From the NCBI RefSeq assembly GCF_910592395.1, contig NC_088322.1, positions 4,955,431 to 5,019,430 on the forward strand: DNA of 64,000 bases, written 5' to 3'. This DNA is from Lineus longissimus. Taxonomy: Eukaryota > Nemertea > Pilidiophora > Heteronemertea > Lineidae. The notes beneath the pieces were generated by a model. It saw only the letters and a list, made by a program, of their open reading frames with translations, was not told the origin of the DNA and made no database searches. Positions 26,540-64,000 of this stretch are shown here, one piece after another. Numbering within the stretch: the stretch's first letter is position 1; each line of letters opens with the position of its first letter. Made by a program: the position numbers and the translations under genes.

Positions 26540-26543
26540 TATG
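26528..26543. repeat. Left target-site duplication of the LINE
   Basis: ACAATCGTTCATTATG is repeated exactly at 32746-32761. In minus sense it contains the ATG of the MULE transposase. It immediately borders the 17-base T run (poly-A on the minus strand) that ends the retrotransposon. Confidence 0.95.
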
Positions 26544-32405: not shown

Positions 32406-32682
32406 GACTTAAAACGTTATTTACAGTGTATGTACAGTGTGTGTACACCCTAGGCGTTGGCAAGTTAAAATAATTGGTGCAGAAACACAAAGGCTTAAAA
32501 CTCGGTCCACACAAAGGCTCCAGCCAACTGAATAAAACGAATTGTTCACAAAAGGTCCAACTAAAACGGAATCGGTGCTGTAAAACGTCACATAGTGCTA
32601 AACGAAATCAACGAAATCAACGAAATAAATAAACGAATATGGCACGTGCTGCTCCCCGACCTGACTTGGAGTAAACTTGGAG

Positions 32683-37486: not shown

Positions 37487-37974
37487 AAACCATGGTTGCC
37501 ATTGGCTGATTTATGTTCTAGACCGTAATGAATTTATGTCCAACACGGCCCTCATGCCAATCACCATAGCTATTTATGTGCTAGACCATTATTCCTGGTC
37601 AGCGATTGGTTGATTAACGTGCTAGAACTTAATTCCTGCACTGTGATAGGCTGATTTATGTGCTAGACCATTATTCCTGGTCAGCGATTGGTTGATTAAC
37701 GTGCTAGAACTTAATTCCTGCACTGTGATAGGCTGATTTATGTGCTAGACCATTATTCCTGGTCAGCAATTGGTTGATTAACGTGCTAGAACTAAATTTC
37801 TGCACTGTGATAGGCTGATTAATGTTCTAGACCATTATTCCTGGTCAGCGATTGGTTGATTAACGTGCTAGAACTAAATTCCTGCTCTGTGATAGGCTGA
37901 TTTACGTGCTAGACAATAAATAATTATGTTCTAGAACTTAAATCGGCATTAATGTCCCCTACGGCCTACCATAG
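37487..37974 (-). repeat. CCAAT-containing tandem repeat, copy 2
   Basis: Reverse copy of the array at 1554-2060, with the same outer border (TTTGAAACCATGGTTGCC) and inner border (GTCCCCTACGGCCTACCAT). Four to five units of about 80 bp carry ATTGGTTGATTAACGTGCTA. It is joined here to the start of the core module, whereas in copy 1 it is joined to the end. Confidence 0.85.
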
Positions 37975-38432
37975 ACCCCGGGGGGGGGGGGGGGGTACAG
38001 ACATCTGATTGACCGCTGCATTAGTAGGCGAGTCAATATATGAAAAATATGGCCTTACCTCAAAAAAATTGCAACAACAGGTTTTATTGCTTTAAATGTA
38101 TTAGGGGGTCATAGTGAACCCCAGAAAAAAAGTCTCCCAATTTCTGACCACGGGAAAGGGGTTAATTAGCATAAATTTAAAATGGCCGCGCCCTGAAATA
38201 TTTATGTACTAGAAACTTTTTAATGGTTGGATTTATACCCCATAAATGTATTATTGATAGATAGGAATATTATACCTCTGAACAAGATAGACATGGTTAA
38301 AATTATCTGTGACGTCACAGTGACATAGAAATGACGTCATCATGATGTAGAAATGACTTAACGGTCTAATTTATGCTACCTTTAGGGTGCTCAGGCAGTT
38401 GAAGTTCATAAATCAATCAATTGAACCAGAGA

Positions 38433-41515: not shown

Positions 41516-41591
41516 GATGTCTGTTAGGCTAAAAGGATATGTGAAGCCAAAGAAAAAAAAGATGGACCAGCCTTTCCTACATTAACCATTT

Positions 41592-41917
41592 ACGTCATGA
41601 TGACGTCATTTCTATGTCACTGTGAGGTCACAGATAATTTTAAACATGTCTATCTTGTTCAGAAGTATCCTATTCCTATCTATTGGTAATACATTTATGG
41701 GGTATAAATCCAACCATTAAAAAGTTTCTAGTACATTGATATTTCAGGGCGCGGCCATTTTTACTTTATGCTAATTAACCCCTTTCTCGTGGTCAGAAAT
41801 TGGGAGACTTTTTTTCTGGGGTTCACTGTGACCCCCCAATACACTTAAAACAATAAAACCTTTTTTTGCAATTTTTTGGGGGTAAAACCATATATTGACC
41901 CGCCTATAGTAAATCAT
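41592..41917 (-). repeat. Repeat module 'core', copy 3 (right inverted repeat)
   Basis: Reverse, more diverged copy of the module, with GGGGTTCACTGTGACCCCCC, ATTTATGGGGTATAAATCC and TGACGTCA. It lacks the terminal CCCCGGGG and TACAGACATCTG found in copies 1 and 2. Confidence 0.8.
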
Positions 41918-41939: not shown

Positions 41940-44061
41940 CTTCCAATGTTTATGAAAGATCATTCTTTGATTAATTTTGATTAATTTATTGTACCATAAA
42001 TTTCCTTCCAATGAAGGTGGCAGCACCATACTGTAGTGACTCTTAAAGGGGCAATAGGGATTACACTACATCTCCCTTTCTAAATTGTCTATGTTATTTC
42101 TGAACTTGGAACTGAACGTTCGTGCACTTTGATGTGGCTTGAAACACTTTGAAAAGAAAAGTCTGACTTATCTTAGACATCTGAACATGATACATGAAAG
42201 TCCATACTTTTAGTTTAAACAAGAAATACTAAATTTAGGACATAACCTTGACATGCGTTCATAGAGGTTACATAACGCTGCGTAATTCAGGCCAGACAAC
42301 CTTTGTCAAAGGATAAGACTTCGAAAGCCGGACGACGTAGATGATGTAAAAGGAGCCCTCCAGTCAAATACTGTCATAGAACGATATATAGTGTGTAAAG
42401 CCGGGAACCTGGCCATACCAGTCATTTGGCCTTTCTTTTTCACTGGGGGATTGACACTCAATACCACAGCACAGAGGACCCTTCAAGATATTAGAATTGT
42501 GGACCCTTACAAAGAAATAGACCTACTGCTAAATGAATATGACACATTTTCCTACCGAGGATATTATGTATTATTTGATGAGAACACGCAAATGGAGTAC
42601 AACCTTGCGCCACCATGGACAACTCCATTGGCCGGCGACTTTAGCTGCAGCATCAACAGTAGTATTGTAACAATCTCTAGATCTGCAGCACAAGTGGTAA
42701 GTTGTGACAAATCTTGGTAAAAAAGACAACGGCAGAATAGACAACAGAAGAACAAAAAATTAAAAAGATAAGTTATCTTTTTTCTGAAAAAAGACCAGCA
42801 TCTGCTACAAAGTAGGCCTAAAAAGATTGTCTTGCTTTTGCCTCTTTTCCATTTACTTTTTCACCGTTGTCTTGTACTTGTTATTTCTTCTGTTGTCAAT
42901 TTTACCGTTGTCTTTTTTACCTGGCATTTTCCCCAAGTATAACCATAAAAGATTAGAGAGTTTAGAGAACAAAAACTATAAAATCAATGTAATCAGAAAG
43001 CGCAAGGAAGTCCGACTTTATATTTTTAAGGTCATCATTAGCGATACTAAGATTCTCAAGATCATTCTTTGATTAATTTTGATTAATTTATTTTACTTTA
43101 AGTATGTTTTTCCCGAGCCACGTTCTTGCAGGCGCCGCCTGATCTTTACCTTAATGAGCCAATCATATAACATCTTATATTGTAGCATGTGATGTATGTT
43201 TTACCAGACTATTATGTGGAAGTATTGTCCTTTACTGGATTGGGGGTACGGTCCACTTGAATGAGACAGATGTAAACAATGCAAGTTTGATAAAAGAATC
43301 AATTACACTGTTTACCCGTTGACATGAAGGTGGCAGCACCATACTGTAGTGACTCTTAAAGGGGCAATAGGGATTATACTACATCTCCCTTTCTAAATTG
43401 TCTATGTTATTTCTTAACTTAGAACTGAACGTTCGTGCACTTTGATGTGGCTTGAAACATGTTGAAAAGAAAAGTCTGACTTATCTTAGACATGAAAGTC
43501 CATACCTTCCAATGTTTATAAAAGATCATTCTTTGATTAATTTTGATTAATTTATTGTACCATAAATTTCCTTCCAATGTTTATAAAAGATCATTCTTTG
43601 ATTAATTTATTGTACCATAAATATGTTTTTCCCGAGCCACGTTCTTGCAGGCGCCGCCTCCTTTGCCTTAGTGAGCGAATCATATAACATCTTATAATGT
43701 GGCTTGTGATGTATGTTTTACCAGACTATTATGTGGAAGTATTGTCCTTTACTGGATTGGGGGTACGGTCCACTTGAATGAGACAGATGTAAACAATGCA
43801 AGTTTGATAAAAGAAGCAATTACACTGTTAACCCGTTGACATGAAGGTGGCAGCACCATACTGTAGTGACTCCTAAAGGGGCAATAGGGATTACACTACA
43901 TCTCCCTTTCTAAATTGTCTATGTTATTTCTGAACTTAGAACTGAACGTTCGTGCACTTTGATGTGGCTTGAAACACGTTGAAAAGAAAAGTCTGACTTA
44001 TCTTAGACATCTGAACATGATACATGAAAGTCCATACTTTTAGTTAAACCAGAAATACTAA
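41940..44061 (+). repeat. Repeat unit of about 500 bp: one partial, two tandem copies
   Basis: Units at about 43055-43505 and 43550-44061 share GATCATTCTTTGATTAATTT, a TTTTTCCCGAGCCACG block and GAAGGTGGCAGCACCATACT through GTTCGTGCACTTTGATGTGG. A partial third copy with the first and last blocks lies at about 41940-42240, before the exon at 42287. The tandem pair therefore sits downstream of the exon, inside what is probably an intron. Confidence 0.75.
42287..42696 (+). CDS. Exon of an unrecognised protein
   Basis: Bounded by an ATTCAG acceptor and a GTGGTAAGT donor. One frame is open throughout and reads PDNLCQRIRLRKPDDVDD, then IPVIWPFFFTGGLTLNTTAQ, PYKEIDLLLNEYDTFSY, GYYVLFDENTQMEYNLAPPW and SINSSIVTISRSAAQV. 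Composition looks coding, and I do not recognise the family. Its first 20 or so bases match the end of the C2H2 first exon at 44949-45054. It may belong to a duplicated member of the same gene family. Confidence 0.5.
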
Positions 44062-44948: not shown

Positions 44949-45054
44949 ATGGCTGACATACGACGCGACTTGCAGTGCACTTACTGCTTGCACAGATTTG
45001 CAAGACACCTGCATCTTCTGACACATCGGTGTCCATTCAGGCCAGACAACCTTT
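44949..45054 (+). CDS. First exon with a C2H2-type finger
   Basis: ATG in a strong context (CACCATGG) opens MADIRRDLQCTYCLHRFARH and then LHLLTHRCPFRPDNL. C-x2-C, then H-x4-H spacing, gives one C2H2-like finger. A GT follows at 45055, only four bases before the 17-kb inverted-repeat element begins. The element therefore sits in the first intron or at the exon edge. The downstream exon could be at 62099, but the phases do not fit simply (phase 1 out, phase 2 in), so at least one exon is missing or changed. Confidence 0.55.
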
Positions 45055-45058
45055 GTTA

Positions 45059-45456
45059 GTTCTATTAAACAGCACTTACCAAGCCGCTTTCTTCTATATT
45101 TGGGTTTCTGTTGGTCGCATTAGTAAGTGCTGTCGGTCACCTGTGTATCATGAACAGGTATGTACATTGAAAAAGGACACCTATTTTCAAGCTAAATACA
45201 AGTGGTATTGGCTCATAATTATACTACACGTATTCTATGTTGTTGGTTCTATGAACTGAACATCCAAAAATCGGGATTCCAAGACGATTGGGAATGAAAT
45301 CCATGTGATTGTTTGTTGACATGAAACGGCACTCGCTACTAAGAAAACATCATGGCCGCTCCTTGCTCATATTTCGAGATCGGCAGTGCTACCCAAGTAC
45401 CGGGCAGAAAGGAAATCTACGGTGGCTCATCGGACGACGGAAAAAGGTGGCGAGGT
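45059..45456 (+). repeat. Left terminal inverted repeat, 398 bp
   Basis: Begins GTTCTATTAAACAGCACTTA. Near the tip, CAGCACTTAC at about 45070 is answered by GTAAGTGCTG at about 45123, so each end can form its own hairpin with a 10-bp stem. It ends GGAAAAAGGTGGCGAGGT. Confidence 0.93.
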
Positions 45457-46491
45457 TTGAACACAGGAATAAATTATACTTACCTCGGACCTAACGACGC
45501 TATCACCTGAACGCCTAACAAAAGAATTTGCTTACGCTTCCCGGCCACCATAGTAATTTCTCGGCGTGTTCCCTCTTTCGGAGGCTATTGACACTAGCTA
45601 AAAGCGGCCATGATTTGTTGGATACACGGCAGCTGAATGTCATCTCCGATTTAGATGAGGGATTACAAAATATCAAGCACTCGGATGAAAGTAATAAGGT
45701 GTTGTTCTTAATGCGTAGTAACAGTAGAATTACTACATATCCATGCATTGGGCTCAATGTTCCGTTGTCAGGTGTTAATTTGGGGGCGAACTGCAACGTA
45801 TTCGGCCGGTCTTATACACTACGATCTACTGTGAGCTGGTACGTTGATGTATAGTCCAGAAGATGTCATGTTGTTGATGAGGACTTACATCACGTACCAG
45901 TTACTAGGACTACTCAGGAAATCTCAAGAAGAAGAAAGTAAGTATGAACTGTCTTTAATCGGTTGTTTTAATCTATATATATGTATTTACATTTTATATC
46001 TTTTTAAGCTACACGGTGAAAATAATTACTCTGGTACGTTGATGTATAGTCCAGAAGATGTCATGTTGTTGATGAGGACTTACATCACGTACCAGTTACT
46101 AGGACTACTCAGGAAATCTCAAGAAGAAGAAAGTAAGTATGAACTGTCTTTAATCGGTTGTTTTAATCTATATATATGTATTTACATTTTATATCTTTTT
46201 AAGCTACACGGTGAAAATAATTACTCACATTTCTAAAAGAAGGTCTAACAAGGAATCTAACAATTTAGGCAAAACCTTGTGGACATAATAAATATAAAAA
46301 TATAGATATGTAGATATATATCCATAACAAACTATTCCAATTGGAGATTACATTTGCAGCCGAAATACAAACAGAAGAGATATAATATTATGGCATAAAT
46401 AACGGAAAGACGCATATTGAAATAAACAACACGCCATCTGTCATATTGTAACGGTTAGACTAATTAAACCAATTTCTTGTTCTTTTGTAAG
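45457..46491 (+). other. 5' region of the helicase gene, exons uncertain
   Basis: An open frame at 45528-45854 (DLLDTRQLNVISDLDEGLQN and on) runs into the 195-bp duplicated exon. It may be the helicase N-terminus, but no GKS/GKT Walker A motif occurs in any frame that I checked. Treated as unresolved. Confidence 0.3.
45838..46227 (+). repeat. Perfect 195-bp tandem duplication in the helicase region
   Basis: The unit starting GGTACGTTGATGTATAGTCC at 45838 is repeated at 46033 with no difference that I can see. The period, 195 bp, is a multiple of three, and the frame stays open across both copies (SPEDVMLLMRTYITYQLLG, then LLRKSQEEES before a GTAAGT). It therefore looks like a duplicated exon plus intron of the plus-strand gene. 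The peptide does not match a helicase motif that I know. Confidence 0.75.
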
Positions 46492-48346
46492 ATATTCTAC
46501 ATGGTAAGGTGCAGATTGTGTTCTGCTCACCCGAGATGATTGTGAAAAAGCCATGGAGGCGAATGCTGACTTCAACAACTTATAAGGACAGATTAGCAAT
46601 CGTTGCTTTTGACGAGATGCATTGCGTTGCCACTTGGTAAGTAATATCAGCACTGCATTACATAACTTGCTACATAATCAAATACTATGTCACGTGTTCA
46701 TTTCGAGAAATGTACCATCTTTGGACTTTTTCACCTTTCCAAAGTTTCGCGATTAGCACCAAAAAGGCAACTGGCGGTCAGAAGAAATGGCGCATACAAA
46801 GTGTCCATTTTCGCCTCAAACGGGCTGGAGTTTTAGAATAACTTTTTGATATGGTTAACCGACTTGCATTTTCGTATACCAACCCAAAAAATGACTTTTT
46901 CCGACGAAAAGTTACGATTAGGATTCATCGAACTATATCTCCACAAGCAAACCACAATAATGATAAGCCACTTATATTATCCAAATATATACATTATTTA
47001 CAAGGTGAAACAAAACATGATACAAATATTTACAAATTGTCCCCTCTTCTAATCCCCCGTTAGGGGCTGGAATTCAGACCTGACTACCGCGCGACAGGTT
47101 TTATTCGCGCTTGCGTGACTTGCCCCATTGTCCTATTGACGGGAACATGTACAGATGTGGTGAAGGAGGACATTTTGAAGCTTCTGGCGTTGCCCCGCAT
47201 TGACGTCATCTCAGCAAATCCAGACAACTAAGAAGTAGGACATTTTCATTATCGTACCATACAGAAGAGAAACCAGGAAGAGGTAAAACTACTTTGTTGT
47301 TTCAGGGGTTCACGCGTGCATGAAATAAACTCCTCTCTCTTCAGGCCCAACATATATCTTGATGTCATACTAAAAAAACCAGGGGAAGGCATCGAGAAAC
47401 ACATTGATGAATACATCCGGGAACTGGGGGAACAGAAACAGAAAGCGCGGAAATCCATCATATATTGTTCGTAAGTATATAAATGTATTCGGGAAATCAT
47501 AATTAGCCTTGCTTTATGTTTGTTACGATAAGTTGACCACACATACATTTTACAATTTCCTGCTTTGCTTCAGAACGCGGATAGAGACTTTCTACAAATA
47601 AATTCAATGAGATAACTATTACTCTCTACTTTATATATAATAGTGAGCTTTCGCAAACGCCCGGTTAGACCCAACGACGACGTTTATGCAACGAAAGAAG
47701 CATCCATAATTACAAGCATTATTGACTGTGAACTCGGTCCCATTAACACTTCTATAATCTATATATTTTCAGTTCAATCAAGATAACATCAGAAATATAC
47801 ATCACACTCATCAATATATTGCTACAGCAGGGTCTGTCGAAATTGCCCGCCGAAAAACTGGTCGACCAGTTCCACAGTGCATTAGACAAGGACACGGCAG
47901 ATGTCATTGTGAATGAATTTCTGAAGGCAGACAGTCATATTCGCTGCCTTGTGTCCACAGTTGCTTTTGGGATGGGAATGTCTGTAAACGACATCGAAAT
48001 AATCTATCATTGGGGCCCATCCCAAAATGCGATGAATTATTGGCAAGAAGTAGGGAGGGCGGGCCGGGATGGCCGATCCTCACAAGCAACTCTGTTAATA
48101 AACCAAAACATGAGGACAGAGATCAATAAACACAAAGGCCAATTCCCGCCTGTTCATACTCAACATTTTCAGGAAGATATCTTAAGTTATTGTAAGGTTG
48201 CCATTGGCAAGAAAGACTGTCTCAGGCGAAACCTTCTCGGAAATTTCATCGGCTATGAAGGCGGAGAGGAAAGAGACTGCTCGGTCATATGCAATTGTAA
48301 AACCTGCTGCTGTAACTGCAGTGGTTCCTGTGGCTACACTGATTAA
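46492..48346 (+). CDS. RecQ-like DNA helicase of the large element
   Basis: Proposed exons: 46492-46636 (ILHGKVQIVFCSPEMIV, then the DExH box as DEMHCVATW), 47064 to about 47215 (GLEFRPDYRATG, motif III as LTGTCTDVVKEDILKLL), 47345-47470 (PNIYLDVILKKPGEGIEKHI, SIIYCS) and 47773-48346 (motif V as VSTVAFGMGMSVNDIEIIYH, motif VI as YWQEVGRAGRDGRSSQATLL, then a Cys-rich end CNCKTCCCNCSGSC like the RecQ zinc region). Phases agree at the first and third junctions. Two problems remain. No Walker A exon was found upstream. The frame after SANPDN meets TAA with no good donor. So it may be damaged, or exons are missed. RecQ helicases unwind DNA 3' to 5'. Confidence 0.8.
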
Positions 48347-48841
48347 AGTACATGTTTATCAATACGAAACTGTCAATAGTGAGTTTCCGCAAACCAGACG
48401 AATATGAAATCACGAATTACGAACTTAAAATTACAAAGAAACTCTCATCACATTTAGCAGTAAGCTGTATCGGGTGTTATATCTTACATCAAAGTGTATG
48501 CTTTCGTCCAGTTCGTCTTAACAAACGGACGCTGCGACATTGTAGACTAATTCGTAACGATTCGACGAGTTCATCACCACGACTTCAAAAGTCGCGGCGT
48601 CTAGGAAATTAGAGTGGTGTGGTAAAACAACTTTGGATCCTGAACGACTCTTCGAAGGGTAACGGACGTTGGTCACCTTAGACACCAATGATCTTGGGGT
48701 CATTTCCTCGGATAATTACCAATTCGTATTTCGTAATTTGTAAATCGTGAGATTTGCAGAAACTCGCTAATATTGGCACTTAACGATGACGAACGACATG
48801 TATAGCCTAGTAATAGTATCTCTCATCATTTTCCGGCAAAC

Positions 48842-49869
48842 CTATGGACGGACAGCTTTCTCGCGGTCAATTTTGAGACTCAGTGATTTTAGCTTCGCAA
48901 CATAGCGCGGAACGGATTGGATGATCAGATCTTGATGGACAAACTCCTCAAATCCATGATGGAATCGGCCAGGGATTTCATTAAACAGCTTATCCTGTTG
49001 GTATTCAAGCATTAGATCCGATACGATTTCCGTAACATCGTGCCGTGCGGCACCACCTTGGCTGGCGTAACTCTCACAGTACTTTTCTTCGTATAGGAGG
49101 AATATTTCCTTGCGGGTAGAGCCGCAAAGCCGGCTGATTTTTTCAGCATTCGTCTCTGATACTACACCGCGCTCCTTCAGACCATCTGCGAAATACAAAA
49201 TATTTCCATTTAAAATAGTTTTTAGTGTATTCGGGTACATTGACGAAGTGCATTGATGTTCACATTCATAACTACTGCTTGTATATAGGGATGAATGTCA
49301 CTGAAAATGTATTCATGATAGACATAAGAAATTGGTTGTTCACAAATGGTAAGTTGCATCAGAAAATATGAAGCGGCCCCCTTCTACAAATGACGTATGG
49401 TGCAAGGGCACCAAAAGAAGAAATACTTTTTTCACCTGCCCGTAAATTGCGTGTATCGAACTTATATCATTTCACACCTAATAATTTTAATGATGAATAA
49501 AATCAGACAAGTTAGTGCAGTTATTATTGCAGAGCGCCCAAAAAGACTCATGACATTTTAAATGTACCTCTCAAAAAGCCCATAAGCAATAGTTGGATGA
49601 GTATATGACTTGATATTTTCCCCTGGTATTTTATGGAAACCATTGCAAGTTGCAATGCCCTTACTTTGGCAAACATGATCATATAGCGTTCATTTCGTTT
49701 CTTGGTCAGATCATCCGGGTAAACATTGGTTTTTTACCTGCCACTTGTTTGTTGCAGAATTCGTTCTCTAGGTCAATTTCGTGGTTGGCTGCGGGCTTCC
49801 CGGTGGTGTTCACTGTCCGGTTGTTGACCGCATCAAAAGCCACACGTCCGTCATAATATCCGTTCACAC
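48842..49869 (-). CDS. C-terminal exons of the DUF6589-like gene
   Basis: Exon 49869-49738 reads GVNGYYDGRVAFDAVNNRTV and NTTGKPAANHEIDLENEFC, the VN.TG....IDLE motif of the DUF6589 family. Exon 49185-48842 reads DGLKERGVVSETNAEKISRL and on to KIDREKAVRP and a stop. The gene ends about 500 bp from the stop of the convergent helicase gene at 48346. Confidence 0.8.
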
Positions 49870-52800
49870 CTGTGGTACAAATTATTTTGTTGGTTTTCAG
49901 TAACATAGATTTATACCAGCCCTCTTCATAACATTAGCAATATTTATGGCCACGTTATGATAAAATTAGTACACACCAAAACATCTATATTAGCTCAACG
50001 GAATTTCATGCTCTTCCGGAACAATACTCATGGCGACTCTAGGCCGTTTGGGTTTATTTCGATTCAAGCAGCATGCGGATACATTGAGGGGCAATAATAA
50101 ACAAAATTGAATAATTTAGTGCGGAACTGGAGGAGTGCTAGAACTAGAAACCAACAGTCTCTGAAAGCGAATTAAACGAATAAATTTGTGATCGCTCTTC
50201 CTGAAAGAGCTGATAGGTCCGTACTGTGAAAATGCTTTAGTCCGGGATGCCTAATAATTAACTGCATTAGTATGGCACCCGATTTATCTGCATGTTTGGT
50301 ACCCGGACTAGCAGCGACCAGGAATTACAAACCGTGGACCCATTAACAACCGACGTTAATTAGTAGGCAAACTCTAAACATTAGATAATAAGTTTCTGTT
50401 ACCTGCCAGCAACCTATGACCGAGGATCACGTAATTGTAGTGATTCCCCATCCTGAATCGAGACATGTCCAGGCGCCAGAAGCGAAGGATGTTTTGGCCA
50501 TCGCCGTGCCTCACAACGAACCGCCGGGCCTCGTCGAGAAGGCCAAGGAAGATTACAGTGAGGGAGTATTCCCTGACATGATCTATGCTGTCCTTGGCAA
50601 CATTCTTCGCTTCCTTTCTGCATCGACTTGTGCAAAACCAATCTCCTTCTGAAAATAATTACGGAAATTTATTGATGTATAGGGGTTTGTAAACGTTTGT
50701 TTAAAGTATAGCATGCAAGAAATGACGTCTAGGAGATACGAAGAACATGCTTGAATTGCAACATGATCCCTGTCCGTGATGTAGAGCTCAATGAACACTG
50801 ACTGTTTACCGCTCATATTTCATAGAAAATTGAATACAGAGCTAAATCTGGGAAACGTTACCCTGCTACCAACTTCACCGTCGTCGTACTATAATCATAT
50901 ACCGGTACTTACTGGGTATTTTCTTAAGACGGGTGCATTTCAGGTGGAACCAGTGAGTGCTGCATTTAGGATTATCGCACATAATCCAGTCTAAATCCTG
51001 GTCGTCTAACTCCAGGTTGCGGCCACAGCAAAAAATGGACTTGGTCCGGCATTGGGGGCTGCCACACCACCAGTCTTCTTCAGTGATTTCCCTGTATTTG
51101 GCTGTCGGGATGTGGCCACAGGACAGATGGAACCATTGTCCGTTAGGGCAGGTTTTCCCCCCCGAACATTCAACCATGTTCTCTTCTTTCTCTGGAAAGT
51201 AGGACACATATTAAACGGACGGTATCTTTAACGGTTCTTTTGTGGAATCCCAAACATTGCCCGACGCTTCATCATATACGCTGAACCCAATCATTACTAG
51301 CTAGGGTATTGGATGAAGTTCTATATCATTACCGATGATTGGCGAAAAGGTTGTCCGACATACCTTCTTGACAGAAGCAGTAGGGAAAAATCCCCTCCTG
51401 TTGCTCTGGGTCCTCTTGCCATAATTGTTCTATCTCAGCCATCTGATGAGTCGGTATCTGCTTATAGACCAATTCAACGATTTCTGTAGCCACGGCCTCC
51501 AGTAAGTCCTCGCCTTTTTCACTGGTCCTGCATTTTAGTCGCTCATTTCCCTGAAAGAATAATTGGCGAGGTGTCAAGCATTTAAAATGTAATTCAGAAA
51601 AATCCATCTTTAGTGCGGCCATCATCGATTATTAATTCGAAGGACTTACCAAAAGACATACAAATGCTTCTGTGACCACTCTCAGGAAATGTGTCGTACT
51701 GTTAAAGGTTTTCATCAAATTAGTAGAAACATTCCTGAAGCTGAATCTGTCTTTGATGTTATACATGCTGCCGCGGTCTGCCCTAGACTGCTGTTTCAAC
51801 AGCAACTTCATTGTGTCCTACAAAACCAAACGGTATAACTTGACTTAAAATATATATACAACTGTACAACATGCGTTCACTCCCAAATAGCTATATAAAC
51901 GTGTTACTTTTGATGGCTACTTAAGTTCCGTTTTTCTCGGCCCAATTTGTTTATCGCATTTTTTACGTTAAATATATAATATAATGTCACGTCAAAATTT
52001 GTGCGGACGACCATTAAACCATCTGAAAGATGCCAACATATTAGCGAAAACTTTGGGTTGGGTGACTTTCGATGAGCATTTTGTCCGTTCAATACGCGTA
52101 GCTCTCCGATATAGACGATATAGGCAAAGTTATGATTATAGTCCCCTCTGTCGTTGAGCCGAACATATCGTCCAAAATAAACTCACTTCAACCAAAAGCA
52201 GCCGCTTGTGAAAATCCTGGGGCACTTGCTCGAAGCTCTCCAAGCGTTTCTCAGCGTCAATACATCATGAAATACAATTCAATCATGATAATATCACATT
52301 CTAATCATGTGACAATTATATATACATGTACAACATGATACATAGAGCGGTTCAGACACACGGCCAATCGGGGATACTTTATACGTATGCGGATAACAAC
52401 GTGGCAGAAATTGGGGGTACATTTTGATTAAGTCACGTTTTATGGTTTCCGTGATAGATCAATACTCCATCCAACCTCCCTAACTCATCGCTGACGTGGC
52501 GGCGGGAGTGACATTTGGGCACGAATGGAACATCGCTGACCACACCACAATCCTTGGCCGTTTCGACGACGGGTGAAAAGACTGCATTCCGAACGGATCC
52601 GGATGAATCCGGGTTAAAACCAAACAACGCGACGGTCCCTTTTTAATCCGGATGCGATCCCATTGATCCGGATCTTTTTGCGGGACGCATCCGGATTTTT
52701 TGACGTCGTCTAAACGGCCCTATTGCATCGCCCGTCACTTTCTTCTTCAAATGTGCGTGCGCTATTGTGCCCGTCACACACCATCCTTGTAGCCAGGGAG

Positions 52801-55800
52801 AATGGGACATTGAAAATTGTGACATTCCTTCCGTAAAATATGATACATGTATTGATTTCCGCCACATACCAGGGGCTCTTCAATTCCCTTATTCCGATCC
52901 GGAATATCAATAAAAACGCATATTCCTCCAATCGTACGTTCACTTGTTTTCTCATTATCGCATTATGTGCTTCCACACCAATTGAAATTGAAAAAATAAC
53001 GTGTATTCGCAATGGAGGCATTTATTCAAATAACTAAAAAAAACTACACAGTAAGGTCGGAAAAAAAATTACCACTTCGACTGTTTTTGGCATCACCCAT
53101 TCTTTGCACCGACAGCCCGTCTCCGTAGGTAACCACCTTATACCCGGTGTTGGTGTCAGGAACGTACCTAAAAAACGTGTAATGCGTGTTAATAGGGGCC
53201 TGATTTTATCAATACAGTAGTGTGCCGAAATCTAAACATTATTATGACAATCTCAGTGAAACAGTTAAACGCCTCAGTTAAATATTTTCGGCCGGGAGCA
53301 ACGAGATTTTTTTGTTTCTGATTGACTCGAGAATGTTACAAGCTGTGTCCATGCGAGAACGAAATGTGATATTGTTTTCGACACTGCGCTTGCGTTATAT
53401 TTGTACACCATTAACCCACCGCTGCAAGTGCTGCAGAATGTTGACCACTCCGGATATAGATGCGGGATGCTCATCAATTACTCCAATTGGTATCTGAAAA
53501 GGTAAGAGAAATACATGAAGCCTTTCAGTTTGAAAGTTACGTTTGTGAAAAATGTGAACCAAATTGATCATGTCACCACAGAGATTGTATGCAATATCGA
53601 GATAAAACACAGTGATATTCTTCGCGCTTTTTAATGTTAGAAAATGTATGACTAAACTACAAATGTTCCTTCCCGAAACAGTCCCATATGAAAATTGCTT
53701 ATAATCACCACTGGCGAAATTCTGTTGGTCTCTTCCGTATAACGATGAACATATGGCCCGACTGCGGATTTATCGTATTTTCCCAGGACATCGTGACTTT
53801 TGAGAATTTCTTTGACGATTATTCGCATGACAAATTTCTCTTGAAATATGTCAGTTTCTGTTGGGAAGAATACCTAAGTGGGTGGGAGACAATAAATGAA
53901 ATTAGAATACACAGCCACCTTCTCCGTATTTCCCACATTCGGGGTCGAACAAGGGATGGCATACTTCTCGTCGTCTCTGCTTATTAGTTCTGTTCAATAG
54001 ATTACCCTATTTACCGGAAATGGCGGTTGTGCCGTGTTGCCTTGCCTTGAAAGGCGTTGGAAATGAAAGTTTAGTAATCTACCGTGCACATATTGCGCAT
54101 ACGTATCAGATGGCCGTTTTGAAATATGAAGGGTGCACTTTACATCGGTATAGGTAGCCTTTAAAAAGACATTTGTATCTCGGTCGGAAGAGATAAAATC
54201 AATTAATTGGTTAATGATGATGGACGATATTATAATGCCATATTTCGGCATAAGATTACATTTACATATTGTATGGTTTACATACCGACATCGGCATGTC
54301 GGCTGCCTTCGTCTGCTCTTCATACAGTATCCCAGTTATCCTATTTTCAATAGCGAAAGCATTGGCCCACATGTTCATCTTGTTGCTGTGTCTTGCGTCG
54401 TTATGACGGGCTTTGCATGTCTTCTGTAAATTGTCCCAACATAGACAATATGTCTTAACATTCTCTGAAATCATGAAAAGTGGAAATTCATATAAAGGTG
54501 CGAATAACTGAACATGTAGCTTGGATAGTTTTCGGTCGATGTCTAATCGTGTATATCCGTCAGTGGGGTTATCAAATGTATCCTCTCTTCATAACCTTTC
54601 ATGTCGACATCGATTAAAACTAGAATGTATAATGACTAGTCTTTATAAATGACTCCTCTCTGTCTTTGGTAGTGTAACACCCCGGGCGTAGCACACTTAA
54701 TAGCAATGTAATATTTGGACCAGTCTGTTTGTCGCGATACATGTACAGGTATATATTTTTCATGGTTCCGTGCGGAAAAATGGTTGTTTTGACATATCAT
54801 ATGCTTCATGTCACCTTGGAGAAATAACATTACTTCAAGATGTCACAATGGTAGAGGTAAGAATCATCGGCGTAAATGTATACATAAGTTGCTATGTTAA
54901 CCACCAAAATTTGAGTGGGTGTACGTTTTGGGAAAGGAGATCGTACAAAACTTCCTGCTGATGTCATAAAGAGGGGAAATTGTTTCAAGCCGCCTTCTGT
55001 AACCTTCGTTGGTAATATACGCCGGGGATGAACGTACTTTCCGTCAAAAATCCCACTGTCTTCGCCATGGATCTGGGCTCTTCCTGGTCGCCTTGAAAGA
55101 CTTCCTGAAAAATAATTTTGATCGTCAAAAAACAATAAGGTGATTATGTCTTTTCATTTCTTATCATAGTGCAAATGTTTTGGATTGCGATTTGTCAAAT
55201 ACAAAAGCGGTGGTGAAAGGCTTCATATATGGCTAGGTTTTCATTGCCTTACTATAGAAATGGTTATAAGTTAGATATGCGCGTGGCATTGGCGGGAAAG
55301 ATGTTTTGGACGATCTTTAGGTCAAATATTGTTTCATAATTATTTGTACCTGAATAGAATTCTTCATGTCGACTATCTTTTCGACAGAACTCTTTCCCAG
55401 GCGTACAACTGCCGAATTCACCCCGGTTTTGCCTGCACTGATCCCCATTTGGTAAAAACAGCTGATAACCTGAAAAAGACCGAGCTTGGGTACTTTGATC
55501 GATGACAATATCATTGGTCGGCTGCAAAAATTGTTCCTAGTGAAAAGGGGGTGTCTTGGTACATCAGTGTCAGTCTCCAGGGGCGTATCTAAGATTTTTG
55601 GAGTGGGGGGGGGGCAGTTACGGACCCTGTCATACGAGCACCGAAGGTGCGAGTTATCAAGGGGGGTTCTTGGGGCCTCCCCAGAAAATTTTGAAAAATA
55701 AGTGATGAAAATTCGATTTCCTGGCTTCTCAGACTGATGATCACAACGCTTTTTTAGGTCTTTGGGAAGTGACCCCCAAATTTGTTTTCGGCTCTTGATG

Positions 55801-58800
55801 AGTTGGGGGGCAATGGCCCCCCCCCCCCCCCCCCCCCGCTAAATATGGCCCAATAGTGTTATAAGGATGGGACAGGATAAAGTTCAAGTCAGCTGGCAAA
55901 TTGTGTAGCAAGTATTCACACTTTAGGGCGCATACTTCAGATATTGTCTGCTCCAGCAAAATCACCCAATGCCCCTTCTGTGCATATCAGTAACCGAAGA
56001 TGGTCAATTCAAGATTTCACCGCTTTAAATGGCACTTTCCGTCGGTAGTGTGCAGTTGTTTGGTACCGTATATATTTCTGGCCAACATCACTCTCTGGAT
56101 TTCTCATGTTTTCGGAATCCAAATCCCTGTCTTAACCATTTGGCATTTTTTTGGGGCAACTGGTAATATTATGGAATCGGTTGACTAATTGCCGGTATTA
56201 CCTTTTGACTTGCGCCCCCAAGCCATAGCATTGCCCCATTTACGGTGGGCAGAAGCCGGAACTTCCGGCGATTTCTTCGATGGAGGATTATTTGTAAGAC
56301 AACACCTATTGCCATGCCGTTACTAAAATAAAAAGGAAGATGTTAAAATTCCGATCGGACATGTATTGAAGATGACAATGGTTTCACCCAATGTAGGCGG
56401 CATCTTTGTGGTGAAATTCAGCATTTAAGGTAAATGAGTATAAGTATACTTTATGTGAAGAGTATGATATGTTTTCATTCATTTAGTTCTTATGGCCTCT
56501 TGCACGTAAGGTGAGTTTGTGTCTTCATTAAAATGGTCTTCATGTACTTAATAGCCCGAAGGAGCTGTTTGTTCAAAGGAAACTTTCACTGACCATGACT
56601 CTGGTGAATGTGACATATACTACCATGTCCAGCAATACTCACTTCTCATTCACTCCCAAGAGGGTTGCCAAGAATTTGACTGTAGTGGGCATAACTTCCC
56701 GTGCTTCGCTGATGAAGTCCTGCCACGAGAAGTCTGTCAAAGAGTCCAGGCTTTTGAGGGTCTTCCTCGCCGACTCTGTCTTCAGCATGTTTTTGGCTTC
56801 CGTGTTCACCCCTTCCCTAACTCGATCTACCAGATGGTTCTTTATGACTGTTCTTTGTGCCATGGCTTTGGTGGCTGCTCTGTATCTACACGATATTATG
56901 CAAAGAAATCTTGTCATTGCTGCTTAAAGAAATACATGTGCCATCAGGGTGCGTGTTATCGCTAATGATATAGTCCTCTCAAGATATTTGACATATAATA
57001 AACGCCAATAATTTACGCCGGTAATTAGCACATTCACAAATCAAGTGACCCTGTCCGTGTGACAATTGTATAATTGTTAGCTCAAATTGTATGGCGCATG
57101 TGAACAATGTGAGATGTACGGCTACACGACAGTATCCAAAGGTCGTTACTAATGACAATTTAATAGAACCCCTCCATCTGCCCCTCACATCCAGACTATT
57201 TCATGGCGAGTATACCCGAATTCAGCCGATTAGTTACCTGTATGACTTCAGGTTGCTGCATATCCGCTCGATAGCGATCTGCGAGTTGTTCAATGAGGAG
57301 ACTGTTACCGTTTTGGCCTGAAAAGTATTCGTCGCGACGGGCAAGGTTGGTGAAGACGGTGGTGTTGTCGCTTCGACGGGTATAGATTCAGAAACGGTTG
57401 GGGAAGACGGTGGTGTGGTTGATTCCTTAATTGAATGAAGACAACATGAAATTAAGTGTTTTGGTTGCATCGGCAATGAATGTTTCTCTCCATCATCCCC
57501 GGTGATTTATGGGTCTTTTCGGCGTCGTTGCGCTCAATGGGATAGGCCTACTGCCGATCATTCTTTAAATCTTTAAAAGTGTTGGATGTTTACAGACAAC
57601 TTCCCGGAGGGTTTTTAAGGGACGCGTTAGAGTTTGCAAGTTGAACCACGAGATCACCGATTTAAGGAACAAGGCTGATTTGACTTAGCTTGTAACGAAC
57701 AACCCGCAAAGCCACCTCCTTCTCCATATATGTCCCCTTCCTTGTACTCAAGGGACAGTCAAGGAATTGTAACTTGGTATAAATACCCCAATCTTAACAG
57801 TTGACGTTATAGGGGGTGCTATGGCCGTTTTGAGTTCATGTAATGCTGTGCACACTAGTTACATAAAAGAAAAGCTGCCTTTTAATTGTTATTCATGGTG
57901 CAACGGAACGGGGGGCATTGACGGAGAGTCGCGAAGTCCATGATGGAGTACCGCTTCGTTACTACACTCTTAAAAATAAAGGTTTTTGAGCTTCTGAAAA
58001 ACCATTTAAGGGTTTTTGGCCAACACAAATATGCACCCCGTAGAGGTTTTTTGGCAAAATGAAAAACCCCAAATGGTATTTGAGATCGGTTTTTCACTTC
58101 GCCGAAAAACCTCTACGGGGTCCATATTTGTGTTGGCTGCAAAACCATTAAAGGTTTTTCAAGAGCTGAAAAACCTTTTTTTCTAAGAGTGTAGGTTGTC
58201 TGAGGAACAAGATATAAGGAACAGGGGGTGAAAAACGCCTCGGGGCTGTTGCCACTAAAGACTTAAATGTCCCCCGATCCCAAAACTGGTGACCAGAGTA
58301 ATGAAATGATTTATTGGTCACGTGGTTAACCGACGTGCCTTTAAATTCGCACCCGATTTGCATCGCCCGCAAGAATAGCGTCTTTGTCTGAGCATTGTTG
58401 ACAGCCATCCTTAGATATCTTGTGGGAAAAGTTGATTTCTCGTGTCTCAGAAAGATCAGCATTAGACTTTAGAGCGTATTTACCGTGAAATTTTCCTGCT
58501 TTTCGCAAATGTGCATATTTCAAGTTTTGGAGGACAATACGTCATGTCGACAAGTCGCGGGGAATATGTTGTTCGAGTTATACCGTCGTGTCTTTTTGGT
58601 TAAGCGTATTTCAACATTTCGTTTCCCTACTTTTGTCAGTCATGCCATTAGCGCACATAATAGGGCCGTTTAGACGACAGGCGAAAAGACCGCATTCGGA
58701 TCGAATCTGGATGAATCCGGATTAAAACCACCCAAGGCGATGGTACCTTTTTAGTCCGGATGCAACCACATTGATCCGGATCTTTTTGCGTTTACACGAC

Positions 58801-61096
58801 GAAAAATTAATCCGGATTCGGGACGCATCCGGATTTTTTCGCGTCGTCTAAACGGCCCTAATATTCAGAAAGATTCAAGCTTAACAAAGTGGGATGCATC
58901 ATGGCTCAGAGTGAAAATAATCGATTTGCACGTCAGGTATTGGTTGATCTAATCCTATCAGAGGCAACTTGTTTTCCACATTTTCTCTGCTACAGCATGT
59001 TGGTTCAACGCACCCTTGTCAAAATAATACTTTTGAGCTTTGTATCATGAAAATATAACAATTTCAAAATTCCACGAAAAATTAGTTTTCTTAAATCTTT
59101 AAATTTCGGCTTCAATTCACAACAGTTTCATTAATAGATCAAAATATCAGTTTCCGAGATTTGAGATTTTGAGATTTTTGATATCTTTATCAATTTTTTG
59201 GTTTCATATCATCCTTTTCATGATAACATTATGATTCATGACAGTTTTCACCGATTTACTGTTTAACTTACACTATAAACATCAGCCAATATGAAAATTG
59301 CTCCACATTTAAAGTTAAAGTACTTTCTTGTGATGATATTTTGATATAACTCCAAAGTGAAATGAGGTTTTTTTTCCCAGGAAGTCTTAGAATTGATCAT
59401 TTAGTAAAACTGTTGTTAATTGGAAGCGAAATTTCAAGATTTTAAAAAATCAATTTTTTTTGGTGATATTTTGAAATTGCGATATTTTCATGATACAAAA
59501 CTCAAAACTATTATTCTGACACGGGTGCGTTGAACCAACATGCTAGAGCAGTATGTGAGCAGTAGGTGACATGTATACAAGATAGAAATACCTAAATCCC
59601 TCCGAGGTATTGAGATATATTTGGTGTCCTTTTACTTTTCTGCAAGGGTGTACATACTATAACCAGCCTTTTCATGGCCACATGGCCTACAAGATTCAAA
59701 GTGAGTCGTACGCATGATGGATCCAAATATAATATAGAGTGAATAACCTCTGATGTTAAAATGATTTAATGCATGATGCGGAGGAAACCTGGTCTGTACT
59801 GTGTGGCTGAGGTTGAGAACATGAAACACACCTCCTCGACGCCCAAAAGGCACCCACCTTCCAATTTTTTTGGCTAGATATTGTGATATAGCGAGGAATA
59901 ACTAATAATCACTGTTCTGAGTGAAATTGGAAAACTGTTAACTCGGTCTTGAATGAGAGGCAAATGTGTGAATCTGTCATAAGTGCCATTTTACAGTTGT
60001 GGAAGATGAATCACACTAGTTATCTCTTTTTATTAGGCGTACAATTTTCAAAATACTCGAAGTAACGTAGTAGCCAGGCTGCCATGTGCCCGCTGGAACT
60101 GATTTTGAGCTCCAGGCCATGATGTTTCTTCCTTCTTCACAGATAACAGGGCATGCCGAGTATTAATTATACCCCGATACCTTTCATCTATGAGATTCCG
60201 GTTCAATGGGAACATGATTTGTTGCCAATTCTACATTGTATTCCATTATTCACTAGCAATTATTAATTCGAGCAATTACACGAATAGTACATGCAATTAT
60301 TAACCAGGAGTTAGTACAACGGGATTTTGAAGATTTAATATTGATATATCCAGAGGTATTTCCAGTTTTTGCGACAGCCTTATCTGCAAGGTTTCTACAC
60401 TGTATATTACAAGTATCTGGTCTGGAGACAAAAGTATAGAAATACTCAGGTCAGGTGTGGTGTCCAGTTCAATTTAAAGACAGGGTAAATGCCTATATCG
60501 GACATACGGACGATGTAATTGTAACCCCAACTTGCGTCGGCGTGAGTTTTCGAAAAGAGTCTAGAATAATGTCTGGCCGCGTGTCAAAGTCCATAATGGC
60601 GCTTTCGCCGGAGTCTCTGACGACATGGTTTAAATTTCAACTGATTAACGTTTCATAGAACTAGAAAATAGTTAGATAGCCTAATGTCTGTATTGTTTCA
60701 AAGCGTGTGCAACTAATGTTTTCCTACGACAATTTTGATATCCACGCGACCTGTACCACACCCTCATAGGCCAATGGATTTGGCGGGAAAAAGAAACATT
60801 TCAAATTTGAAACAGAGTGACTGGAAAGCGTGAATTAAACATACCTTCATTCTCTTCCTGAATTTTTCGGTAAACTTCGCCCACTGGACCAAAATGCGTT
60901 TGCACGTTTGGCAGAAGAAACCACGCGTCGACACAGTAGCATTAGTTACTGGAAAGCCAAGGAGAAGTCCTCGCAAATCACTGAAGGAAATTTCCGCCTC
61001 TTGGTAGGCAATCGTCCTCTCGGCAGGCACACGGTTGCCGTAGTTCCGCCCATTCTTCGTGAAGGGTTCCTCGCAATGGACGCAGCAAGACTGCAT
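48842..61096 (-). CDS. Tandem-PHD, DUF6589-like protein of the large element
   Basis: Proposed exons (5' to 3'): 61096-60845, 57317-57238, 56887-56643, about 56290-56202, 55469-55350, 55104 to about 55020, 54464-54286, 53493-53409, 53167-53073, about 52250-52187, 51817-51650, 51550-51364, 51191-50913, 50648-50403, 49869-49738 and 49185-48842. The last five join in perfect phase. The first exon has a Cys finger (CVHCEEPF, FFCQTCKRIL). The two PHD fingers span FPYCFCQ...MVEC...WFHLSCGH and FCCGRNL...MCDNPKCSTHWFHL...GDWFCTSRC. DUF6589-type motifs include VVTYGDGLSVQRM, NVKTYCLCWDN, YGDGQ-like RHGDGQNILRFWRLDM and NRTVNTTGKPAANHEIDLEN. Phases of the N-terminal exons are unresolved. No stop interrupts the C-terminal half. 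A transposase role is inference. Confidence 0.75.
50403..51550 (-). CDS. PHD-finger exons of the DUF6589-like gene
   Basis: Exon 51550-51364 ends PYCFCQE. Exon 51191-50913 adds MVECSGGKTCPNGQWFHLSC and WWCGSPQC (finger 1), then IFCCGRNLELDDQDLDWIMC, DNPKCSTHWFHLKC and KKIP. Exon 50648-50403 opens KGDWFCTSRC, which completes finger 2. The junction codons work out exactly (G+AG = Glu, A+AA = Lys). PHD fingers usually read histone tails, so these could guide the element or its protein to chromatin. Confidence 0.85.
52556..52720. mobile_element. MITE copy A in the large element
   Basis: Begins GGCCGTTTCGACGACGGGTG and ends GACGTCGTCTAAACGGCCC before TA. The inside has repeated ATCCGGAT. It is a diverged relative of the element at 58663-58858 and lies in an intron of the DUF6589-like gene. 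Confidence 0.75.
55577..55840. repeat. Dispersed repeat with poly-C run
   Basis: Opens CAGGGGCGTATCTAAGATTT and carries GGAGTGGGGGGG, CGAGCACCGAAGGTGCGAG and, at its right, a 21-base C run (55817-55837). Its ends suggest the same type of common animal repeat as 33578-33745. It is an insertion inside the large element's minus-strand gene. Confidence 0.55.
57965..58191. mobile_element. Foldback MITE, 227 bp, TA flanks
   Basis: Ends CACTCTTAAAAATAAAGG and its reverse near 58191 (TTTCTAAGAGTG), with TA on both sides. The arms continue inward (CAACACAAATATG against CATATTTGTGTTG), so most of the element is one long palindrome. It lies in an intron of the DUF6589-like gene. The terminal inverted repeats and TA fit Tc1/mariner-like MITEs. 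Confidence 0.85.
58663..58858. mobile_element. MITE copy B in the large element, TA flanks
   Basis: Terminal repeats GGGCCGTTTAGACGAC and GTCGTCTAAACGGCCC are perfect over 16 bp and flanked by TA (58661-58662 and 58859-58860). The interior is rich in ATCCGGAT, as in copy A at 52556-52720. Confidence 0.88.
58991..59545. mobile_element. Foldback element of about 550 bp
   Basis: The left arm (AGCATGTTGGTTCAACGCAC onward, about 90 bp) is matched in reverse at 59453-59545 with about ten differences. The AT-rich middle is also full of short self-complementary runs (TTTCATGATA, TATCATGAAAA). It lies in the first intron of the DUF6589-like gene. Confidence 0.75.
59546..60844. other. First intron of the DUF6589-like gene, nothing further seen
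   Basis: No exon, repeat or RNA gene recognised. The open frame at 60455-60658 lacks motif and splice context. Confidence 0.4.
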
Positions 61097-61669
61097 TGCT
61101 GTTACTAAAGGTTGAGGGTAGAAACTTGCCCCTTTTTATATTTTTTGCTTGACGATCTTTAAATAGTTTTTGCGGCCAAATGTATCATTTGAAATAGATT
61201 TGCAGCCAGTCCATTTATAATGGAGGGACTAGTCTTTCATTTTTGTTCTTTGGTTTATATTAATATAGTATTTTTGAGTGGTTAAACTTCCCCGTGCCAG
61301 CAATTTGGGAATGGTATCTTCCGAATGACGTGATCATGATATTAAAGGTGTGAGCTAAGACTGTCTAGACAGTGCGGCTTTAACAATGTTGCCTCTTCCT
61401 GGAAAAACCTGCGCACTAAATGCTCTTGTAGGCCAATAGGCACTGACATGCTATTGACAATGCTATCGGTATTGACAAAGCCAGTGGCATTGTATTTCCA
61501 CTCCAAGCACGTCCTAAAAAATAAGTTGGACTATGAAACCTAGTAGTAGGCTTCATTTCATAGTCAAACCTATTTTTGGTGCCTGGTCCGTGGTCTCGTT
61601 CAAGATTGACAGTCCACTTGGACCTTTCCCAGGTAGTTGCATATATTTATTGCCGCGTCATTTTTTTCT

Positions 61670-62067
61670 ACCTCGCCACCTTTTTCCGTCGTCCGATGAG
61701 CCACCGTAGATTTCCTTTCTGCCCGGTACTTGGGTAGCACTGCCGATCTCGAAATATGAGCAAGGAGCGGCCATGATGTTTTCTTAGTAGCGAGTGCCGT
61801 TTCATGTCAACAAACAATCACATGGATTTCATTCCCAATCGTCTTGGAATCCCGATTTTTGGATGTTCAGTTCATAGAACCAACAACATAGAATACGTGT
61901 AGTATAATTATGAGCCAATACCACTTGTATTTAGCTTGAAAATAGGTGTCCTTTTTCAATGTACATACCTGTTCATGATACACAGGTGACCGACAGCACT
62001 TACTAATGCGACCAACAGAAACCCAAATATAGAAGAAAGCGGCTTAGTAAGTGCTGTTTAATAGAAC
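61670..62067 (-). repeat. Right terminal inverted repeat, 398 bp
   Basis: Reverse copy of 45059-45456 with one difference by eye. It ends TGTTTAATAGAAC, followed by TA. The last exonic features of the inner gene stop about 570 bp before it. Confidence 0.93.
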
Positions 62068-62098
62068 TAGATAAGGGATATACCTTTGTTCCCTGCAG

Positions 62099-64000
62099 TG
62101 CTAGTCAACAAAATATCGAAAATGTGAAAAATTGGTGCCAGCAAAATGGCTGTTTCATCATTTGGCCTTCTTCTGATGATGATGAAATTGTGCAGGTTCA
62201 GAATGACAAGTTCGTGATGGTCAATTCTAAAGGGTGCTCCTTATTGACGAAAAACAGTTGGGCTATTGTTGGAAAACTACGTGCCAGGGTGGAACAATTT
62301 TATGGTGCAATTAACCAAGATAAAATTCTTCGTGATGTGCCATACCAGTACATGCAGCCATTGGGTGATGAGTTTTGCCAAAGATATGGTATACCTCTAG
62401 ATTGCAAAAACAATCCCAGGATTACACTGATCTGGCTCGCTGGTATAACAATCTACAATCGGTACCACCCATAGTTCAAACTGGAGTTTGCTGACACTCC
62501 GACCCAAGTCAGATTTGCAAGCATTGTCAAACATAGACTGAACATGACAAACCTTTTGTGCGATCCCGATATCACTTTCACTGTGAACTTGAACGACTTT
62601 CCACGCTCGAACAGTACTAGTACGGTCTGGCAACATGTCCCAGTCTCAAGGGTTGGCTATCTATGGAGATTGCTGGACATTCCAGTCATTGATGTCGGGT
62701 TGATGAAGGAAATGTGCCTTGGGCCATATTTAGTAAAAAGAACCTTTTCATACCTCTGTCACTTGCGCAATGTGGAAGTTAGCGATGAGAATCAGATGAA
62801 TCTCATCACAACCATTGAGGAGTACTGGGATGCTATTGGTGAGGTACCAGATACAACGAGGATGTATTACACAACAATAGCAAATGAACCGGAAGGATGG
62901 GATCCAGTCAAGTATTTTCAATGGCCCAGCGCAGGTCTGAGTGTCATCACGATGAAAATGCCATCTGCCAACAGGAGCAACCAAAATCAGATGAACTTCA
63001 AAAAGCGTATGTTGGTCTTTGCAGTAAACGGAGTGGACTACTTGAGATTTACACCACCTCTGAATAAGTTATGCGGTTGGAAGTGTGGCACACATGATTC
63101 AAAAGATTTGGGCAGCCGAATGCTTTGGGCAGATGCTCATGTTCTTGCCCTTCTCTTGCTACTTTGTTGCATAAGGGATCACCATCATCCAGTCATCAGA
63201 AGAAGCCATTTATGTGACCCAAAACTGCCCATACGACTGCAGCCACGATTGGGCTCTCAACTACCCCCTCCAATTCCTATCACGTCACCGGATGGGCTGA
63301 GGTGTCCTACAAGTACAACTACTGCAAGTAGGCCTACAATCCCTCTGACGGCTACAACTACACTTGATGAGCAAGGACCACCAGTGAGCAGTCAGAACTC
63401 TTCGCCCCCTAGTGCTACAACGACGTCCCCAGATGAGCAGAGCAGTCACATGACTATACCTTATGGTCAGAACTCTCAACTCCCTAGTGCTACAACGACG
63501 TCCCCAGATGAGCAGAGCAGTCACACGACTATACCTTATGGTCAGAACTCTCAACTCCCTAGTGCTACAACGACGTCCCCAGATGAGCAGAGCAGTCACA
63601 CGACTATACCTTATGGTCAGAACTCTCAACTCCCTAGTGCTACAACGACGTCCCCAGATGAGCAGAGCAGTCACATGACTATACCTGATGGGCAGAACTC
63701 TGAACTCCCTAGTGCTACAACGATGTCCCCAGATGAGCAGAGCAGTACTAGATGTACAACACCACTTACCAGAACTGAACCACCACCAACCAGAACCAGA
63801 ACTGATGAGCAAGGAGCACACACAGAAAGACAGAGACCAGGAACTGTTCGCCTGACTTCCTCTCAGCAGTGTCCATACAGGGGACTGGACAATGAGGCCA
63901 ATGCTTGCTACTGCATTTCTGTCTTGCAGTGTTTAAAGCGAATCAGTTTTGATACGCACATTCTTCCTTCAGAAGATGCAGTCACAACAGTGTTCTTGAG
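62099..64000 (+). pseudogene. USP-like (C19 peptidase) gene with an in-frame stop, 3' end cut off
   Basis: A CCCTGCAG acceptor precedes 62099. The frame runs from there (VKNWCQQNGCFIIWPSSDDD and on) to a TAG at 62472-62474, right after NRYHP, and then stays open in the same frame to the window end, over 500 codons (FKLEFADTPTQVRFASIVKH and on). A Thr/Ser-rich tract of five 25-residue repeats (about 63391-63750) leads to PYRGLDNEANACYCISVLQC, the Cys box of ubiquitin-specific proteases (usual form GLxNxGNTCYxNSxLQ), with the likely catalytic Cys in NACY. The N-terminal part is unrecognised. The lone TAG could be a recent null allele, a sequence error, readthrough or a sign that 62475 begins a separate start further on (ATG at 62544). 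Confidence 0.6.
63391..63750 (+). repeat. 75-bp coding tandem repeat, about five units
   Basis: Unit peptide LPSATTTSPDEQSSHTTIPY plus GQNSQ; the DNA period is 75 bp, so the frame is kept. Units 2 and 3 are almost identical, while the first and last are more diverged. It forms a low-complexity spacer before the USP Cys box and is likely variable in copy number. Confidence 0.88.

Follow-up and report, generated by a model that had tools for sequence, protein, structure and literature searches.

The AcademH lineage of the Academ superfamily of DNA transposons is reportedly the subject of Kojima 2020 (Mob DNA 11:15). The locus considered here lies in a 64,000-nucleotide stretch of the genome of the nemertean Lineus longissimus (C15:4955431-5019430; hereafter the window) and consists of a 17-kilobase (kb) unit, at 45057-62069, in which two inverted arms enclose a gene for a RecQ-type helicase and a gene for a protein of the uncharacterised Pfam family DUF6589. 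In published descriptions, a RecQ helicase is recorded for Academ (PMC3627910), and target duplications of 9 or 10 base pairs (bp) are given for AcademH and of 3 or 4 bp for AcademX (PMC10045372). KolobokH also encodes RecQ and is reported only from fungi, Kolobok elements being marked by TTAA duplications and RR..YY termini (PMC9587614), while duplications of 7-8 bp are given for the families named under KDZ (PMC12730594). An earlier note on this DNA, made from its letters, had named no known superfamily with this gene pair; the Academ and AcademH descriptions just cited tell against the view that a RecQ helicase of this kind is foreign to every named superfamily.

We report that, as assembled, the unit joins two copies of a single DNA-transposon family head to head. 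The wider reading, in which these fused members would belong to AcademH and DUF6589 would be a DDE transposase with the RecQ protein as its helper, is one that we consider highly probable.

Fusion of two family members

The arms, at 45057-45456 (plus strand) and 61670-62069 (minus strand), measure 400 bp each, and a single mismatch at 45080 leaves 99.75% identity between one and the reverse complement of the other. The earlier note had recorded inverted ends of 398 bp with one difference, and two convergent spliced genes between them; both observations stand, the former with slightly extended limits and the latter as a RecQ-type gene on the plus strand facing a PHD/DUF6589 gene on the minus strand. 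Each arm carries the 14-mer ACAGCACTTACYAA 12 bp from its tip, with an inverted copy 37 bp further inward, and the arm strand folds into a hairpin slightly better than do shuffled sequences (z -2.41; 2 of 200 shuffles equally good).

Genome-wide searches, which covered the 391-megabase (Mb), 30-contig assembly, returned 15 matches to the arm, the window's own two included. Those outside the window comprise three of 398-399 bp, one of 255 bp with an adjoining 59-bp companion, six short ones (about 52-63 bp) and two diverged ones at about 70% identity. We read the ten places represented by all of these except the two diverged ones. The ten copies, 107-915 bp in length, define the family termini as 5'-TAGTTCTATTAA (end A) and TTACTAGGACTA-3' (end B), and a perfect 9-bp target duplication of varied sequence bounds nine of the ten. 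Complete A-to-B units with such duplications occur at C5 (856 bp), C6 (856 bp), C7 (915 bp) and C16 (771 bp); copies of 771-915 bp remain at about 98.6-99.8% identity with their duplications intact, and the family has thus moved recently, as non-autonomous copies. The 12-bp termini TAGTTCTATTAA and TAGTCCTAGTAA match as inverted repeats at 10 of 12 bases. The search with the arm had been proposed as a way to find other full copies; it yielded a two-ended family and no second A-to-A unit, none of the 15 matches apart from the window's own two forming a close inverted pair of A ends.

An older, diverged copy on C9 (13.6 kb, about 63-65% identity) contains frames of other repeats and is likewise bounded by a 9-bp duplication. 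Its flank or end recurs at two other places on C9, which were not counted as independent. Three places with diverged family pieces within C9:4.59-4.67 Mb have the identical 9-bp flank GACAGTAGC, which points to segmental duplication.

The left arm is end A of a complete non-autonomous copy of 856 bp (Y; 45057-45912, plus strand), with end A at 45057, end B at 45912 and equivalents in the units at C5, C6, C7 and C16; Y is an internal-deletion derivative of the gene-bearing element. Its B end is base-precise and is followed by five bases, CTCAG, and then by sequence from midway through the helicase gene that belongs to the second copy, X. An exact tandem duplication of 195 bp (45836-46225, plus strand) takes in the B end of copy Y together with the adjacent helicase exon and intron. 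A public protein, P0002 ('WRN-like isoform X1 [Lineus longissimus]'), matches the helicase exons of the locus at about 98-100% and includes part of the 195-bp duplication, so that this public gene model crosses the rearranged region. To the left of Y, an exact 22-bp match pairs 42285-42306 with 45035-45056, the second copy of which runs exactly up to the left edge of the fused unit.

The right arm, by comparison of the arms and of the copies elsewhere, is end A of X, facing outward to the right. X is the gene-bearing copy, with its A end at 62069, and appears to have lost its other end and the 5' part of its helicase. Its target is a multicopy repeat (62070-62700, plus strand) broken exactly at 62069/62070. 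The right flank as a query gave six other full-length genome matches and a seventh in two pieces, and all three target copies that were read (two on C12, one on C14) continue unbroken through the corresponding point; X was therefore inserted exactly there. No matching target duplication is found at the outer edges of the 17-kb unit, where AACCTTTGT on the left stands against GATAAGGGA, the duplication expected of X, on the right, and the unit as such was most likely never inserted. One candidate duplication was rejected as coincidence: the 9-bp direct repeat ACCTTTGTT (45049-45057 and 62082-62090) is asymmetric about the unit, seemed too rare for chance (340 of 400,000 random trials) and would have fitted AcademH. 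It was dropped because its right copy belongs to the interrupted repeat, which reads ATCTTTGTT at this position in the two C12 copies and AATTTTGTT in the C14 copy, and sits 12 bp off the true end.

A deletion or rearrangement most likely produced the fusion, rather than transposition of a 17-kb unit. Y and X would have been separate nearby insertions, later joined in an event that would have removed the B end of X, the 5' part of its helicase, the right duplication of Y and the left part of the target of X. A different origin, by faulty transposition in which the B end of one copy attacked the body of its neighbour and left an A-to-A composite without deletion or end joining, would account for a B end fused base-precisely to foreign sequence, much as in a strand-transfer product; we regard it as unlikely, however, given that the 5 bp beside the B end differ from the helicase sequence of the related copy on C6 (described below) and that no copy of CTCAGGAAA adjoins the A end. 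The joint at 45912/45918 may also reflect an error of the assembly.

The gene-bearing element and its two genes

The B half as a query retrieved 16 genome matches, including the window's two, of which six are full length. For one of these six, C6:7901686-7902141, the arm search gave no A end; this match closes a second gene-bearing copy: C6:7894919-7902141 matches window positions 46113-52042 in reverse at 99.2%, continues with 835 bp not present in the window's element and then reaches the B end. This copy is truncated within a DUF6589 intron. Because the two partial copies overlap, we infer for the gene-bearing element the order A end, DUF6589, convergent RecQ gene, B end, with a length of about 17 kb by addition. 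Over the 5.9 kb compared, the window and C6 differ by 37 substitutions (about 0.6%), and over the last six DUF6589 exons (452 codons) by four silent and three replacing changes. DNA of two PHD exons was recovered by genome search only at these two places, and that across exons 6-9 only in the window, both counts being lower bounds.

Four plus-strand exons (46491-48346) encode the RecQ core from just upstream of motif II to a Cys-rich end (E=2.6e-32 against WRN/RecQ). They lie at 46491-46637, with motif II (DEMH); at 47064-47226 (FRPDY...LTGT); at 47346-47470 (PNIYLDV...SIIYC); and at 47771-48346, the last exon, with the C-terminal RecA domain and the Cys-rich end (Pfam Helicase_C, E=2.1e-11; WRN/RecQ in the PDB). 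Searches by tblastn with related proteins found neither the 5' exons nor the Walker A motif in the window's element. The same probes succeed in the C6 copy, in which 5' exons with LPTGYGKS (Walker A) adjoin the B end and motif Ia is present. The exon at 47064-47226 has an altered acceptor and donor in the window, both normal in C6. Since its 5' part was not found and the splice sites of this exon are lost, the helicase of the window is judged to be broken. Across 47056-47228 the differences from C6 concentrate in this one exon and at both its acceptor and its donor. A tree of 22 sequences (that of the window and 21 selected from 73 matches, with two fungal rows on long branches) joins the helicase, with support of 96/91, to short RecQ proteins of Patella, Mya and Diadema and three ENA proteins, the inner order not being settled; this group is separate from the 12 other helicases.

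The DUF6589 gene of X (48842-61096, minus strand) has 17 exons and encodes 971 amino acids with no stop. Its exons have GT-AG borders and matching phases, the sole exception being the donor of the exon at 53077-53167. The product matches Pfam DUF6589 (PF20231) with E=2.5e-15 and 56.6 bits against a gathering cut-off of 27. A search of 5.8 billion proteins gave a single relative, P0001 (1058 amino acids, ENA; E=9.1e-87, 30% identity over 95% of residues 300-971), itself a DUF6589 match at 127.3 bits, and a repeated search again gave P0001 alone; no relative was confirmed in viral contigs, nor in prokaryote genomes as probed by two short patterns only. Against the PDB, matches came from the PHD part alone.

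Blocks common to the window protein and P0001, compared at 31% identity, are WDN, GDGLSVxRM, (E/D)FH, NRTVN and a D...EF block. Three minus-strand exons hold the candidate catalytic acids: the WDN exon (54286-54464) the first, the GDGLSVxRM exon (53077-53167) the second, and an exon with NRTVN and DLENEF (49738-49869), of which NRTVN, D and EF are shared with P0001, the third. A tandem PHD insert (50403-50648, 50913-51191 and 51364-51550, minus strand; Pfam PHD, E=3e-7) separates the FH part of the protein from its C-terminal part, the nearest PDB entries to its second finger being YNG1/ING fingers. On these motifs DUF6589 is most likely a DDE transposase, with acids in WDN, in GDG and in the D/E of DLENEF; the earlier note had proposed it as the transposase or a required cofactor, and the motifs favour the former as likely.

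In operation, the DUF6589 protein would bind and cut both ends and join them to the two target strands at positions separated by 9 bp, the RecQ helicase would unwind or process DNA in the reaction, and the tandem PHD within the transposase may guide it towards histone tails that carry modifications. Non-autonomous copies would be mobilised in trans, a role in which the genes surviving on C15 and C6 may serve them. The specific proposal that DUF6589 is the transposase of AcademH, that the tandem PHD built in after its second catalytic acid and before its third, the second finger being ING-like, reads histone tails, that the opposite-strand RecQ protein assists, and that the two genes, the transposase kept on one broken copy and the helicase on another, could move non-autonomous copies in trans is offered tentatively, as somewhat short of an even chance. 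It is rather improbable that DUF6589 has an accessory, DNA-binding role and that the true transposase is encoded elsewhere or acts in trans: the acids of DUF6589 are motif candidates from two sequences, but P0001 retains identical motif blocks, and no other clear gene besides the helicase was noticed between the ends in lists of open frames, some of which were scanned against Pfam.

Neighbouring repeats and open frames

Outside the unit the window holds other repeats. The regions 1135-2046 and 37566-38409 hold a 420-bp direct repeat of 98.8% identity (1135-1554 and 37990-38409) and tandem arrays of 41/82-bp units, inverted relative to each other and separated by about 35.5 kb; together with an inverted third relative of 306 bp at 41591-41896, these are possibly the ends of another family. 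At 57962-58194, 9254-9474 and 63391-63746 there are palindromic repeats of small size, along with a 75-bp tandem array. Among the open frames, one of 657 amino acids (24617-26587, minus strand) has FLYWCH and MULE transposase domains (Pfam) and a Cys-rich start that is PHD-like by eye, and one of 1164 amino acids (27758-31249, minus strand) is of a non-LTR retrotransposon, with endonuclease, reverse transcriptase and zf-RVT matches (Pfam); a frame of 432 amino acids without a Pfam match (31113-32408) lies just upstream of the latter.

Comparison with known superfamilies

Several points weigh against the reading of a fused AcademH pair with a DUF6589 transposase. For the element, no full-length autonomous copy was found, and the complete form is put together from two overlapping partial copies. 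For the fusion, the CTCAG of the joint has no match in the C6 helicase, and no matching duplication survives at either Y or X. For the transposase, the exon at 53077-53167 has no usable in-phase donor, and fold prediction, made on P0001 alone, gave no usable model (mean predicted local distance difference test score, pLDDT, 33.9). For the class, one of the ten copies (C1:10817171) has no 9-bp duplication, and MuDR-type elements also give duplications of about 9 bp. By Pfam, no MULE domain is present in the DUF6589 gene.

The reading first put forward, of a single 17-kb transposon of a new superfamily with 398-bp inverted repeats, recently inserted at TA, drew on the near-identity of the arms, the TA on both sides and a DUF6589 gene without stops. 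We find it very improbable. In the ten other copies the TA taken for a target duplication proves to belong to the element, whose own end starts with it (TAGTTC...); the arm taken for an inverted repeat forms a single end of the element in the other copies read, the opposite end being TTACTAGGACTA; the flanks differ; and no further close inverted pair of A ends was seen among the 15 matches. Nor is the unit near-pristine, given a helicase deprived of the 5' exons and Walker A that C6 retains, one exon with altered splice sites and the missing target duplication. What survives of the recent movement is mobility of the family to which the gene pair belongs, borne out by its near-identical copies with intact duplications; a mobile unit of 17 kb does not survive, the locus being a fusion.

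A KolobokH-like element is hardly credible: KolobokH resembles this locus in encoding RecQ with a transposase, and TTAA lies within both termini, but TTAA as target duplication is ruled out by the 9-bp duplications of varied sequence around other copies, and the RR..YY termini of Kolobok (PMC9587614) differ from the TA..TA termini found here. KolobokH is moreover reported only from fungi (PMC9587614).

Exact ends and 9-bp duplications are now given for a recently active family of RecQ-helicase transposons in a nemertean. The Pfam family DUF6589 is provisionally tied to that family, with a PHD pair inside the candidate transposase; were DUF6589 indeed a transposase, an uncharacterised Pfam family would gain a function. 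In the open literature searched, which left subscription papers and Repbase outside its scope, neither DUF6589 nor a link from it to AcademH was named. The locus also carries a caution, in that long, near-perfect inverted repeats may be two copies of one end and not the inverted repeats of a transposon.

Among the systems compared, the family is filed most likely as AcademH because of its RecQ helicase and its 9-bp duplications. Duplications within the 9 or 10 bp of AcademH bound nine of the ten copies and the older C9 copy, though not the fused unit; the helicase is of RecQ type, with Walker A in the C6 copy; and the host is likewise an animal. The locus differs from AcademH in being a fusion and not a full element. 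Like the KDZ group (Zisupton, Dileera and Kyakuja), the family consists of DNA transposons of eukaryotes that are equipped with accessory genes or domains; it differs in the duplications, 7-8 bp in the KDZ families named (PMC12730594), and in its Pfam match, which is DUF6589.

In the RAG/Transib system a PHD histone reader (RAG2) is coupled to the transposase. We draw on it as an analogy and claim no homology; in the family described here, the putative transposase carries the PHD pair within its own sequence.

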